Source: an uncultured SAR86 cluster bacterium (GTDB lineage: Bacteria; Pseudomonadota; Gammaproteobacteria; Magnimaribacterales; D2472). From it: 33,218 nucleotides of DNA. The notes under the pieces were generated by a model, which worked only from the letters and a program-made list of their open reading frames with translations, ran no database searches and was not told where the DNA came from. This document shows, in pieces, positions 28,172 to 32,698 of the stretch; positions within the stretch are counted from its first letter, which is position 1; each line of letters opens with the position of its first letter. A program made the position numbers and the translations under genes. Where the stretch lies: positions 1-33,218 of the forward strand of contig CABXFE010000014.1 in NCBI GenBank assembly GCA_902511425.1, given 5' to 3'.

Positions 28172-28711
28172 ATGTTTACAAGAATGGATGAAAGTACTCA
28201 AGAGGAATGGCAACATATCAGTGAGGAGCATATGCCTCACATTTTCGATATGCCCAAAAGGATACTCTCAATGCTTAAACAGGCCGAGTCATTAACACTT
28301 GGATTTGGAACAGATCAGCTTCATCATGCACTTCAGACAGCAACAATGGCCAGAAGAGCAGGCGCAGAAGATGAAATGATATTGATCAGTTTGATTCATG
28401 ATATTGGCAAGGTCATCAATGTGCCTAATCATGGTCAGATTGCAGCAGAAATGATTAAACCCTATGTTAGCGAGGATGCTTATCATATTATTCGTACCCA
28501 TCAAGATTTTCAGGGCGAACATTATTATCACTATATGGGAAAGCCACAGGACCTACGCAAACAATATGAGAAGGAGTCGTGGTATGCAAAGGCTACTGAA
28601 TTTACAGACGAATGGGATCAAGCTGCATTTGATCCTGATTATGAAACTGATAGCTTGGAATCATTTGAGCCCTTGATCAATCAATTTTTTGGCGCACCGC
28701 ACACTATTTAA
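28172..28711 (+). CDS. HD-domain protein, candidate mixed-valent diiron oxygenase (PhnZ/MIOX-like), 179 aa
   Basis: A compact HD-fold protein. Metal-ligand candidates are H52 (LHHALQ), H76-D77 (SLIHDIGK), H87 (NHGQIAAE), H110 (RTHQD) and an aspartate in TDEWDQAAFDP (D146 or D149). The spacing of 24 between the first His and the HD pair, and the presence of two further histidines, resembles the HD-domain oxygenases PhnZ, TmpB and myo-inositol oxygenase, which bind two irons, rather than one-metal phosphohydrolases. DEWDQxxFDPxY is also characteristic of that group. Substrate unknown; known relatives cleave C-P or C-C bonds. The start follows AGGTGA. It is convergent with the Rieske oxygenase, 49 bases apart. 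Confidence 0.72.
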   Translation: MFTRMDESTQEEWQHISEEHMPHIFDMPKRILSMLKQAESLTLGFGTDQLHHALQTATMARRAGAEDEMILISLIHDIGKVINVPNHGQIAAEMIKPYVSEDAYHIIRTHQDFQGEHYYHYMGKPQDLRKQYEKESWYAKATEFTDEWDQAAFDPDYETDSLESFEPLINQFFGAPHTI

Positions 28712-28760: not shown

Positions 28761-29903
28761 TTAAAAAATTTCAGAGTCCGAGGGTTTTAATTCATTTCTT
28801 GCAATAGGAATCGCTTGCCTAATTTTATTCGCACTATCAATCAAGCAAACTTCAGATGCAGCAAGAGGGCCTGATTTAAAATTATTTGTATTCATTCCTT
28901 CTTGCACCAGATTGATTAAATGAGTGTCCTCATTGTTTACTTGTCTATTAATTCTCCAATTTAGGTATTGAGCTGCCTTTGTTTCCCTGCGCTCATCTGG
29001 AAGGGCATACGCAATTTCTCTTATCATGGTTGTATTGGAGTCTATTGGAATAAACTGCATAAAATCCATTTGTTCTGGGTAAATATCAAATGCAAGATTT
29101 GGCCATAATCTGTAATATAGCCAATATCTTTGTTTGTCATCTGAAAGATGATCCATATGCGGCAAGTATTTATCATAAAGCCTGTTTGAAAGACAATCTT
29201 TGCGAATATTGGTTCCATCTCCCCACATTTTATGGACATAGCCATTATTTTTTGAGACTTCAACTCCGTAACTTTTACCAACCAAATTGGAGAGCCCAGG
29301 ATGCGCTACAGGTATATGCAATGCATCAACATAATTATCAGCAATTTGCTTCCAATTAACGCTTCTAGGTCTCATTGTAACTCTGCCTAGAGGCTTCATC
29401 TCTTCAAGTCTGTATTGCTCAATCTCATTAATATATGGCTCAAATTGTTCATGAACACTTGGCACATCAGATTCAAGTAATTTAACAAAAATAAAACCTT
29501 GAAATATCTCTAACTCAATTTTTTGAAGACCATGGTCTTTTTTATTCAGATCTGTAAATTGATCTTCATAAGGAACCTTGATTAGATTTCCCTTAAAGTC
29601 ATACCCCCAGGCATGATATGGACAAGTAATTTTTCCGTTACAGTTTCCCGAAACTTCATCAATAAGCTTGGTACCTCGATGAGAGCAAAAATTATTAAAT
29701 GCCTCAATATTGCCATCTTGATCTTTGATAACAAAAATACGCTTATTGAAAATCTCAAATGTAAAAAAATCTCCAGCATTTGGTACGTTGGAAATATGGC
29801 AAACTAATTGCCAGTTCTTAAGAATTAATTCTGTTTTTTCGAGCTCAAAAAATGCCTCACTGGTATAAGTCCAACCTGGCAAACTTTTATATGAATCATT
29901 CAT
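28761..29903 (-). CDS. Rieske-type aromatic-ring-hydroxylating oxygenase, large subunit, 380 aa
   Basis: Two-domain oxygenase. The Rieske [2Fe-2S] ligands are C73 and H75 (FCSHRGTKL) and C94 and H97 (CPYHAWGYD), with the normal spacing. The mononuclear iron site lies in NWKQIADNYVDALHIPVAH, with H196 and H201 as ligands and D193 as the bridging acid. Many such proteins hydroxylate aromatics, but others demethylate quaternary amines (choline, carnitine, stachydrine). No reductase or ferredoxin gene is adjacent. It is the last gene of the permease-pentein-Rieske run, starting 2 bases after the pentein stop, so a nitrogenous substrate is more likely than a ring; that is inference. Confidence 0.9.
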   Translation of the reverse strand: MNDSYKSLPGWTYTSEAFFELEKTELILKNWQLVCHISNVPNAGDFFTFEIFNKRIFVIKDQDGNIEAFNNFCSHRGTKLIDEVSGNCNGKITCPYHAWGYDFKGNLIKVPYEDQFTDLNKKDHGLQKIELEIFQGFIFVKLLESDVPSVHEQFEPYINEIEQYRLEEMKPLGRVTMRPRSVNWKQIADNYVDALHIPVAHPGLSNLVGKSYGVEVSKNNGYVHKMWGDGTNIRKDCLSNRLYDKYLPHMDHLSDDKQRYWLYYRLWPNLAFDIYPEQMDFMQFIPIDSNTTMIREIAYALPDERRETKAAQYLNWRINRQVNNEDTHLINLVQEGMNTNNFKSGPLAASEVCLIDSANKIRQAIPIARNELKPSDSEIF

Positions 29904-29905
29904 TA

Positions 29906-30772
29906 TTATATTCTCAGCAGTGGTCTTGTTAAGCAGGTTGGTCCGCCTTCACCTTTTCGGCTAATTTCAAGCCCCTTATAAGACTTGATTTTGCATCCAG
30001 CTTTCTCTAGTTCAGCACTTACCTCCGGCAATTCTTCAAGCATAATAATTGATCTTGGCGATGTTGCCAAAACATTGCATCCCATCAATAAGTATTCAGC
30101 ATCGGGAACCTCTACAAACTTTATTCCCAAGCTACTAAGCCAGCTAATAAAAGTATCTGGCATGAAAGGTTTATAAATTAAAGCTAGATCTTTATCTAGA
30201 GGTGAAATTATTGACATCAAATGAAGAACATCATCAGGGTGCTCTGGATCTGGTAAATTTACAACATGCAAATCTACTTCAGAGCCTAATATTTTTTTTA
30301 ATTGCTCTATGCCGTCAAGATTAGTTCTTGGACCTAGTCCAACAGCAGCATGATTATCGTCGATCCAAATAAAATCACCCCCTTCAAGCGTTCCAGGCGC
30401 TTTGATTTGACCAGCTATCTCATATCCTTTTTTAGCAAGAGTTCTGTAATTTTCATTGGCTTCTGGCGTCCTAGATTCTCTTCCCATATTACAAAGTATC
30501 AAACCAGCTTTGGATATTAAAATACTATCTCTTGTGTAAATACTATCAATCGTCAGTAAATCGGAAGAGGGCAAATCAACAATTTCTATTTCCTCTTCTA
30601 AAAGCAAATTTCTAAAGTAATTAAATTCAACAATTGCTTTTTCAAGATGAGGTTTTGCATGAAATCTTAACGGCTCCCACTCACGTGAGAGTTTTTCTTC
30701 ACTAACGAAACCTTGAAGAGGTGACCTGATCGCCACTTCTTTGATTTTAGAGTATTCATTCATTTCACGCAT
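29906..30772 (-). CDS. Dimethylargininase/arginine-deiminase-like pentein hydrolase, 288 aa
   Basis: Pentein-fold enzyme with a cysteine nucleophile. Conserved pieces are YTRD (79-82), IKAPGTLEGGDF (123-134), GLGPRTNLDGIEQL (145-158), H184 in DDVLHLMS and the nucleophile C280 in GGPTCLTRP. This set matches dimethylarginine dimethylaminohydrolase and related COG1834 proteins, which release dimethylamine (or ammonia) from methylated or free arginine and leave citrulline. Which substrate is used cannot be settled from sequence. The start is set at 30772 (or ATG at 30763); the longer frame from 30808 would run into the permease gene. It lies 4 bases after the permease and 2 before the Rieske gene. 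Confidence 0.85.
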   Translation of the reverse strand: MREMNEYSKIKEVAIRSPLQGFVSEEKLSREWEPLRFHAKPHLEKAIVEFNYFRNLLLEEEIEIVDLPSSDLLTIDSIYTRDSILISKAGLILCNMGRESRTPEANENYRTLAKKGYEIAGQIKAPGTLEGGDFIWIDDNHAAVGLGPRTNLDGIEQLKKILGSEVDLHVVNLPDPEHPDDVLHLMSIISPLDKDLALIYKPFMPDTFISWLSSLGIKFVEVPDAEYLLMGCNVLATSPRSIIMLEELPEVSAELEKAGCKIKSYKGLEISRKGEGGPTCLTRPLLRI

Positions 30773-30776
30773 GAGT

Positions 30777-32063
30777 TTATTTTTTAAGTAAGTAAATTGG
30801 CATGCCAATCAAAATAAGGATAAAAGAATAAAATATCATTTCAATACCAGCCCCCCAAATAGCAAAAAATGCATAAAAAAATGTACCACATGAAATTAAC
30901 ATTGCATTATTTCTTTGAGAATTATTGATATCCACTCGTGCAAATTTAAATTCTGCGATTGCGCAGAATGAATAAGCTATTAAGGTAGATAACGTTGACA
31001 GCATAGCCATGAAAATAAATGCATTTACTACCCCTTTTGTATAATTCAATATCAAAAGAATGCTAACAAATGACCCTGTAAGCAAATAACTAAAGAGCGG
31101 CGTCCCATTTTTATTTAAAATTACAAATTTTGCTGGAAGCAGACCATCTCTTGCAGCGGCAAGGCTTAGATTGCCTGCAGTCAGTGTATTTGCATTTAAT
31201 GAACCTAGAGTAGATATAAGAGCACCTATGCTAATTATTGTTCCGCCTGTTACTCCCAAGACTTTTGTTGCAGCTAATGCAAATGGAGCAGAGGAGTTTA
31301 TCAATTCATTTGCTGGAACTAAAACTGCTATTGCAATACTTACCAAGATATAAAGAATAAGTATCGTTAAAACTGATGCAATCAACACCTTGGGAATAGT
31401 TTTCTGAGGATTAATTACATTTTCTGCTGGCACAGTCGCTGTTTCAATTCCAATAAATGACCACATAACTAAGGTTGTAACTGTGGCAATAAGTGAAATG
31501 GGATGAAGATTGCTTGGATTCAGCTCTGGTAAATTAGCTGTATTAAAGTTTGCTGCTCCAAGTAAAATTATAAATATAAGTGGTAATAATTTTAATAAAG
31601 TAGTGACAAGCTGAAATTTAGAGCTATTTTCTAAACTTTTAATATTAAGAAAAACAATAATCCAAATGAGCAGGAGTGATACAAGCAAAGAATGAACTTG
31701 AGAGGCAATAATTTGAGGAAGAAAAAATCCTAAGTAGCCCACAAAAGCAATTGATATTCCAGCAATAGCTGAAATACATGATACCCAATAAGTCCATGCA
31801 ATTATAAAACCTGCAAAATTACCAAGCCCTTCGTTAACATAAACATAAGGTCCGCCAGTTTTAGGGATCCTTATAACCAATCTTGCCATTGTTAAGGCCA
31901 CCAATATTGATCCAGCGCCAGCTACAAGCCACCCACTAAATCCTAGCAATCCATAGGGAGCCAACAAAGTTGGCATCATAAATATACCTGAGCCTATCGC
32001 ACAGCCCACAGCAATTGACCAGCCTCTCCAAAACCCTATAACTCTGTGTTGATTTGAATCCAT
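30777..32063 (-). CDS. APC-superfamily amino-acid permease, 428 aa
   Basis: Inner-membrane transporter with about twelve helices. The N-terminal helix carries GCAIGSGIFMMPTLLAPYG, the substrate-gating GSG motif of the APA group (AdiC, CadB, PotE), and IPKTGGPYVYVNEGLG follows. That group moves arginine, agmatine, lysine or polyamines. It is immediately upstream of the dimethylargininase-like gene and almost certainly co-transcribed with it, which supports a basic or methylated amino acid as the substrate. There is no ribosome site; a TATTAT 6 bases before the ATG suggests a leaderless transcript in addition to read-through from the membrane-protein gene. Confidence 0.88.
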   Translation of the reverse strand: MDSNQHRVIGFWRGWSIAVGCAIGSGIFMMPTLLAPYGLLGFSGWLVAGAGSILVALTMARLVIRIPKTGGPYVYVNEGLGNFAGFIIAWTYWVSCISAIAGISIAFVGYLGFFLPQIIASQVHSLLVSLLLIWIIVFLNIKSLENSSKFQLVTTLLKLLPLIFIILLGAANFNTANLPELNPSNLHPISLIATVTTLVMWSFIGIETATVPAENVINPQKTIPKVLIASVLTILILYILVSIAIAVLVPANELINSSAPFALAATKVLGVTGGTIISIGALISTLGSLNANTLTAGNLSLAAARDGLLPAKFVILNKNGTPLFSYLLTGSFVSILLILNYTKGVVNAFIFMAMLSTLSTLIAYSFCAIAEFKFARVDINNSQRNNAMLISCGTFFYAFFAIWGAGIEMIFYSFILILIGMPIYLLKK

Positions 32064-32095: not shown

Positions 32096-32698
32096 TTAAC
32101 TTACAGTTCTTCTAGCCAACAAGATAGTTAATTTATATAAGATTGGCGCCATTATTAACCAAGGTAATTGTGTTTGAAACATTACGCTTCTTCCGTTAAA
32201 TTCAAATAATAGCGGGTTAAAGAACTGACCGGTAGGAGCTAGAGGCGCCCATGATAGTGACTTACCCTCAGATAATTGATCGTGATATAAAAAAAGTTCT
32301 ACAAAAAGATTTTGAGTTATGCACCATATTAGTAGAATGCTAAAAGCTCCCCAGTTCCATTGTTCAAAAACTTGAATGTTTTGTTTGCTATATTTCCACA
32401 TTAACCACAAGCCTCCCATGGAAATTGTTCCCGCATCTGCTAAAGAATTTAGAAGCCAATTAAGATGCATTGGAATCCATGTATTCAAGACTTCTGATCT
32501 TCTGACATTTACAGGATCTCCATCAATCCAACCATAGGTAAACCAGAGTTCCCAGCTCAATGAACAAATAAGAAAAGATCCTAAATATATCGATGGTACC
32601 CAGAGTGGGATACTATCTTTTTTATAAAAATAAATTATTAGAGGAGCAAGAGCGCTAACATAAACAATAGTTATTACCCTTAGCTCCTCTAAAGACAT
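32096..32698 (-). CDS. Polytopic membrane protein of unknown family, 200 aa
   Basis: Five or six hydrophobic helices are visible (about 6-24, 31-52, 81-102, 115-140, 175-195). Between the second and third lies a polar, aromatic segment with WELWFTYGWIDGDPVNVRRS and the motif NTWIPMHLNWLLNSLADAGT, which may face the periplasm. I do not recognise the family. It starts 4 bases after the DUF4177-like gene and shares its promoter; the permease starts 32 bases after its stop. The gene context suggests membership in the permease operon, but a functional link is not shown. Confidence 0.75.
   Translation of the reverse strand: MSLEELRVITIVYVSALAPLIIYFYKKDSIPLWVPSIYLGSFLICSLSWELWFTYGWIDGDPVNVRRSEVLNTWIPMHLNWLLNSLADAGTISMGGLWLMWKYSKQNIQVFEQWNWGAFSILLIWCITQNLFVELFLYHDQLSEGKSLSWAPLAPTGQFFNPLLFEFNGRSVMFQTQLPWLIMAPILYKLTILLARRTVS

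Follow-up and report, generated by a model that had tools for sequence, protein, structure and literature searches.

A conserved permease–pentein hydrolase–Rieske oxygenase cassette in the SAR86 cluster and its possible role in the catabolism of methylated arginine

Which compound is handled by a run of three genes encoding an APC-family permease, a pentein hydrolase and a Rieske oxygenase? The question is raised by contig CABXFE010000014.1 of an uncultured SAR86 cluster bacterium, which was analyzed here over its entire length of 33,218 nucleotides and is referred to as the window; its genome of origin comprises 1.14 Mb and is 56% complete. An earlier note, made from the letters of the window alone, had read the three genes as a route to import a methylated arginine and strip its methyl groups. 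We found that the genes form a real, conserved catabolic cassette, as seen in their order, their conservation and the residues of their products. Our tentative reading is that the cassette serves the catabolism of an arginine derivative, most likely N-omega-methylated arginine from methylated proteins, with an optional N-demethylation by the Rieske oxygenase. The part with the best support is that a substituted arginine, probably a methylated one, is imported and hydrolysed.

The open reading frame listing bears out the gene order, permease first on the minus strand, and the gaps of 4 bases (permease/pentein) and 2 bases (pentein/Rieske) given by the earlier note. The gaps presume the pentein ATG at 30772; the frame could also start at a TTG farther out, at 30808. 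Scans against Pfam and NCBIfam fit the three kinds of protein listed in Table 1, the pentein as one of the arginine deiminase (ADI)/dimethylargininase (DDAH) type. All three passed the Pfam cut-offs, and none reached a curated NCBIfam cut-off (for the permease, among the best 25 of 32 matches). The permease scored 160.9 bits against AA_permease_2 and 255 bits against TIGR00905, under the curated cut-off of 409. As no curated NCBIfam cut-off was reached, we regard the three proteins as outliers of named families.

Table 1. Genes of the cassette and its immediate flanks, with positions in the window
Feature	Position	Strand	Size	Family matches	Remark
APC-family permease, basic amino acid/polyamine antiporter type	30777..32063	-	428 amino acids	AA_permease_2, TIGR00905	First gene of the unit
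Pentein hydrolase, ADI/DDAH superfamily	29906..30772	-	288 amino acids from ATG
Rieske oxygenase alpha subunit	28761..29903	-	380 amino acids	Rieske, Ring_hydroxyl_A
Membrane protein (by eye)	32096..32698	-	200 amino acids	Family not assigned	Directly upstream of permease; possible fourth cassette gene
HD-domain protein	28172..28711	+		Weak PhnZ/TmpB/MIOX-type matches	Convergent, flanking; not counted in the unit

Conservation was counted over the pentein relatives with at least 55% identity (n = 29, the window excluded). The permease gene lies directly ahead of the pentein gene, in the same direction, in all 29 loci, and the Rieske gene follows directly in 20 of them. Thus, we regard the permease-pentein pair as the core of the unit and the Rieske gene as an addition, and a chance neighbourhood is unlikely given so constant a layout. 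Conservation of the three-gene unit, which the earlier note had left to be checked, is evident from these counts. In the family, the pentein was found in 16 of the 107 genomes searched, all of them in the home genus, and the full order is kept in all 15 home-genus loci other than the window. A Rieske ortholog with at least 69% identity, each time adjoining the pentein gene, was detected in the same 16 of the 26 genus genomes (the window's included). Both genes are missing from the remaining 10, in which the Rieske search returned local matches of at most 31% only. Furthermore, the permease-pentein pair was found in four SAR92/Porticoccaceae contigs, where no Rieske gene adjoins it, as well as in ten genomes that all belong to a single order of another class. 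Five of these ten carry the full trio (G433, G549, G539, G559 and G562). In G576, the contig ends within a Rieske-like frame directly after the pentein gene, and G532 has a 55% Rieske fragment at the end of a separate contig. The best-scoring Rieske match in the other three (G526, G570 and G544) and in the four SAR92 genomes is at most 34%.

The cassette is present or absent as a block. We read stretches from five of the six trio-free genus members that keep the HD gene, naming genes by eye. In three of them (G034, G030 and G029), the HD gene, cysE, cysK and f440, a flank gene of 440 amino acids, are closed up with the trio absent. In G039, a relative of f874 and other genes, and no trio, lie between the HD gene and f440, and G017 was too rearranged to judge. 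The trio genomes carry the Rieske, pentein and permease genes, mostly together with the 200-amino-acid upstream protein, between the same HD and f440 flanks, and we draw the block from this comparison.

The residues that bind arginine are kept in the pentein. Aligned with the DdaH of Pseudomonas aeruginosa (26% identity, E 3e-16), it has D76, D82, R101, E130, R149, H184 and C280 in common. They comprise three catalytic residues (Cys, His and Glu), one Asp that holds the guanidine, and a further Asp and two Arg at the amino-acid end; the roles are those given in PMC11659421, assigned by us to the individual DdaH residues. The residue numbers Cys280 and His184 of the earlier note, which had called both intact, were right. 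The subfamily is marked by the motifs HLM and GGPTC and is named only 'arginine deiminase family protein' in the records consulted. A profile search of solved structures put the P. aeruginosa DDAH first, with ADIs and DDAH-1 of the human/bovine type behind. The structure model of the pentein was weak (mean predicted local distance difference test score, pLDDT, 57.2), and Foldseek with it added little to the sequence search, returning the P. aeruginosa DDAH on top with amidinotransferase and NnhA entries close behind. The pentein tree fully supported a split between the Met-type family and DdaH, the branches being long.

The closest described counterpart is the dda unit of P. aeruginosa, in whose record ddaR and ddaH are followed by an APC permease 28% identical to that of the window (E 4e-24). 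DdaR is referred to as the regulator of methylarginine metabolism in PMC8694187 and PMC7035377. In both units a pentein hydrolase adjoins, on the same strand, an APC permease of the basic amino acid/polyamine type, and the catalytic and arginine-binding residues are shared. On the other hand, the window unit differs in Met for Lys, in a reversed gene order and in the added Rieske gene, and identity is low for the permease as well as the pentein. No DdaR-type gene was found among the window neighbours scanned with Pfam and NCBIfam, the scope that holds for all neighbour scans below.

More distant pentein relatives were informative in their surroundings. The Met-type penteins of Rhizobium sp. 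AB2/73, Shinella, genus g236 and others share HLM and GGPTC with the window protein at 33-38% identity. Where their surroundings were read, they adjoin, unlike the window protein, ABC transporter, TetR, aminotransferase or decarboxylase genes or a second pentein rather than a permease and a Rieske gene. In g236, all four genomes with a 35-38% relative have the Met-type pentein directly beside a pentein with the HLK motif, which is of the DDAH type; the one HLK protein scored (in L102) reached 390.5 bits against the dimethylargininase model NF045658 (cut-off 450). In the two loci of still more distant relatives that were scored (L066 and L070), the pentein gene neighbours that of a 5-guanidino-2-oxopentanoate decarboxylase (778 and 787 bits; cut-off 500). 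L070 has in addition a Lys/Arg/Orn-type binding protein just under its cut-off (245.5 bits against 256), and ABC-transporter, TetR or aminotransferase genes surround the two loci by eye (for Rhizobium sp. AB2/73, as annotated). Phaeobacter has the same kind of decarboxylase next to a DdaH-like protein (213.6 of 450 bits). The neighbours of a 43-44% relative in G114 resemble, by eye, formate-tetrahydrofolate ligase and PotB/PotC-type permeases. Altogether, the thread common to the contexts of the pentein family is the catabolism of arginine derivatives.

As side observations on these loci, the adjoining HLM and HLK penteins of g236 (L083-L086, in G569, G548, G597 and G552) resemble a two-hydrolase methylarginine operon, and the pentein pairs of L102 and L103 also adjoin an apparent isochorismatase-family hydrolase and a TetR regulator.

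The Rieske protein has its cluster ligands at C73, H75, C94 and H97 and, by alignment with CntA, the iron triad at H196, H201 and D326, with Asp193 as the bridging residue and Tyr191 at the position of CntA Y203. By sequence, its top matches are enzymes of group V: CntA was the best match in the PDB (122.6 bits; the next other enzyme, 95.8) and GbcA the best NCBIfam model (125.6 bits against a cut-off of 670). Tyr191 corresponds to the aromatic residue employed by CntA for its cationic substrate, and a Tyr occupies this position in all nine trio sequences aligned; an aromatic residue there marks subgroup Va according to PMC7948474. The window protein departs from CntA and GbcA in carrying a bridging Asp instead of Glu, and this residue, together with the scores, ruled out a CntA or GbcA ortholog. 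With the Glu absent, the sequence does not bear out the suggestion of the earlier note that the Rieske enzyme might demethylate a betaine-like compound. The structure model of this protein (mean pLDDT 32.5) was not used.

We placed the Rieske protein in a midpoint-rooted tree of 45 rows, which contained nine of the 21 full trio sequences and few references (L163, L165 and the G532 fragment were left out). The nine trio rows formed one clade with supports of 100/99, which was joined by ten roughly 50%-identical proteins of Sphingobium and others (100/98 for all 19). The next to join (93/95) were proteins whose genes lie near those for polyamine-type ABC transporters, aminotransferases, GcvT-like proteins and FAD (flavin adenine dinucleotide) proteins, and the GbcA- and CntA-like rows were placed in different groups. 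BenA, AndAc and the dichloroaniline-plasmid oxygenase (DCA) stood outside with 100/99, albeit on long branches, with few references and under midpoint rooting. Thus, the trio proteins likely stand closer in this small tree to Rieske enzymes that oxidise amines than to ring hydroxylases, though this is not proven, given the midpoint root and the long outer branches. Among the ten relatives, an APC permease of 28-34% identity was encoded within some kilobases of the Rieske gene in four of nine. Neither a reductase gene nor a beta-subunit gene was found among the window neighbours scanned (for the beta subunit, the only flanks covered), and we rejected a ring hydroxylase with a beta subunit on the latter count. 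As far as the sequences tell, none of the outcomes that the earlier note had named as fatal was encountered: the unit is conserved, the hydrolase does not look like an enzyme confined to arginine deimination, and the Rieske protein stands apart from BenA, AndAc and DCA in the small tree.

From these observations a route can be proposed. Methylated arginines are made by protein methylation and freed by proteolysis, as stated in PMC6273216. The permease would import N-omega-methylated arginine; Cys280 of the pentein, assisted by His184 and Glu130, would attack the guanidino carbon, release an amine and leave a citrulline-type product, which argG would return to arginine. Optionally, the Rieske enzyme, served by a reductase encoded elsewhere, may oxidatively N-demethylate a methylated compound of the route (the substrate itself, a methylated citrulline or the released methylamine), yielding formaldehyde and a usable nitrogen compound. 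That the substrate is methylated has, to judge from residues and gene context, about an even chance, and an N-demethylase role of the Rieske protein in an arginine-derivative route is possible, though doubtful. Strong argG matches (at least 125 bits) were detected in 18 of the 26 genus genomes, so that citrulline should be usable in most; 22 genomes exceeded the search cut-off, G039 with two weaker pieces bearing stops and the remaining counted matches being weak. The import-and-strip reading of the earlier note thus gains from the conserved unit and from the arginine-type residues and contexts, and falls short as to the substrate and the demethylation.

Several findings weigh against this reading. 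In the pentein, Met186 follows the catalytic His at a distance of two residues, a position held by Lys in DDAH and by Asp in ADI, and the dimethylargininase models of NCBIfam score far under their cut-offs (NF045660, 77.1 of 340 bits; NF045658, 59.5 of 450; NF045659, 24.2 of 300). Met186 and these scores ruled out a close dimethylargininase, and the label of dimethylargininase in the earlier note holds for the missing ADI Asp, the residues kept at the arginine end and the family context with dimethylargininase, and not for the Lys or the scores. The pairing of a Met-type relative with a DdaH-type protein suggests that their substrates are not the same. The bridging Asp of the Rieske protein recurs in nine of nine trio rows and ten of ten rows of the 50% relatives, as well as in BenA, AndAc and DCA, while the CntA- and GbcA-like rows have Glu, and the E205D variant of CntA is described as inactive in PMC7948474. 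The ten relatives of about 50% identity (L149-L157 and L105) have no pentein in the stretch read. Seven of them directly adjoin a large frame for an FAD protein, all from one cluster (in L154, where it was scored, it is CrtO/phytoene-desaturase-like), and several are near TonB receptors, M20 peptidases and Xaa-Pro dipeptidases; the FAD protein and the dipeptidases count against the arginine route. The seven pair-only genomes show no Rieske ortholog, and therefore the pair works without it. With home-genus genomes being 56-92% complete, absence from any single one is weak evidence. As for metabolism, argG was not strong in 8 of the 26 genus genomes, no GmaS-type match (TIGR03105) rose above the cut-off in any of the 26 (weak matches in 20), and PF11927 had no match in the 26. 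We take TIGR03105 to cover GmaS and PF11927 dimethylamine oxidation, so that released methylamines would have neither of these outlets. The gap would be closed by a Rieske demethylase, or the amines would exit the cell.

The Met residue also bears on a rather unlikely alternative, in which permease and pentein, the latter with an atypical active site, constitute an ordinary deiminase system for arginine or another unmethylated guanidino amino acid and the Rieske enzyme acts on an unrelated or downstream compound. The Asp two residues after the His in ADI stabilises the guanidine and the Lys of DDAHs accommodates the dimethylamino group, according to PMC11659421. The window protein has HLM against the HLD of ADI (alignment with 4e4j), and Met stands in place of this second guanidine-binding Asp in 45 of the 45 family members taken (one protein per locus; the distant L072 and L073, and L083-L086, of which two repeat G569 and G548, were left out). 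Plain arginine is therefore less likely as the best substrate. The pentein does carry ADI-like features, namely a TRD motif and matches to PRK01388 (65.9 bits) and arcA (56.7 bits), its distant relatives adjoin the guanidino-acid decarboxylase, and the low Rieske matches of the seven pair-only genomes suit a Rieske enzyme with separate business; those two scores, however, lie far under the cut-offs of 414 and 489, the 288-residue protein leaves no room for the helical domain of the roughly 400-amino-acid ADIs, and no other gene of the ADI pathway was found among the eight window genes scanned. The HLM motif and the size together excluded a canonical arginine deiminase.

An alternative that we regard as unlikely turns to other methylated or N-substituted amino acids derived from peptides, such as N-terminally methylated proline or alanine, or trimethyllysine, with the pentein and the Rieske enzyme acting separately and sharing import and regulation. 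The strict adjacency of the two genes in 20 loci argues instead for a single route, even though in L060 the genes ahead of the trio, on its strand, encode an OPT peptide transporter, an Xaa-Pro dipeptidase (603.7 bits; cut-off 500) and an M24 peptidase, relatives of that dipeptidase are found near several of the 50%-identical Rieske genes, and an S51-family peptidase sits two genes past the HD gene in the window.

Within the methylarginine reading, a more specific and decidedly unlikely version would have the Met-type pentein convert symmetric dimethylarginine, or another N-substituted arginine, into N-methylcitrulline and methylamine, and the Rieske enzyme, as a new oxidative N-demethylase with a bridging Asp and an aromatic residue at its substrate site, release citrulline and formaldehyde. 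Human DDAH-1 does not convert symmetric dimethylarginine, according to PMC6273216. This version would account for the four genomes in which the pentein relative accompanies a DdaH-type protein without replacing it, and for the lasting link of the Rieske gene to the pentein gene. It is improbable that the Rieske enzyme hydroxylates an unmethylated or aromatic compound and owes its place behind the pentein gene to history, since the co-occurrence of the two in the genus, their adjacency in another class, the tree position apart from BenA, AndAc and DCA and the want of a beta-subunit gene among the scanned window neighbours oppose the bridging Asp shared with the ring hydroxylases compared and the low similarity to all solved enzymes.

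As to novelty, the permease-hydrolase pair seems to be of a known kind and the Rieske addition to be new. The earlier note knew of no described pathway of this composition; this fits the Rieske gene, the unusual part, and overstates the case for the unit as a whole, since the P. aeruginosa annotation already places ddaH beside an APC permease. No permease-pentein-Rieske unit appeared in the titles or abstract openings among the open-access literature matches listed. To our knowledge, the recovery of methylarginine nitrogen and methyl carbon by bacteria with small genomes has hardly been described. If our reading is true, an oxygen-dependent step joins a known import-and-hydrolysis scheme, a function is suggested for a pentein subfamily labelled only by family in the records consulted, and a Rieske clade of mixed type is named whose chemistry is directly testable.

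Of the flanking genes, that for the 200-amino-acid protein lies upstream of the permease in 11 of the 15 trio-bearing genus-mates, and in one further (L031) the contig begins at the permease. The protein had no Pfam or NCBIfam match, and no match to it was found in the four trio-free sites read. The HD gene was considered as a partner of the unit for its weak matches to phosphonate oxygenases and was dropped, as it persists in 6 of the 10 trio-free genus members. In G114, a Rieske relative (L165, 7064-7921) is broken by an in-frame stop, and a second relative (37%) is present elsewhere in that genome. A 45% pentein relative (L062, in G386) lies near amtB- and glnK-like genes by eye, and the window gene at 1489-2775 encodes a protein 57% identical to the amtB-like protein of that locus.

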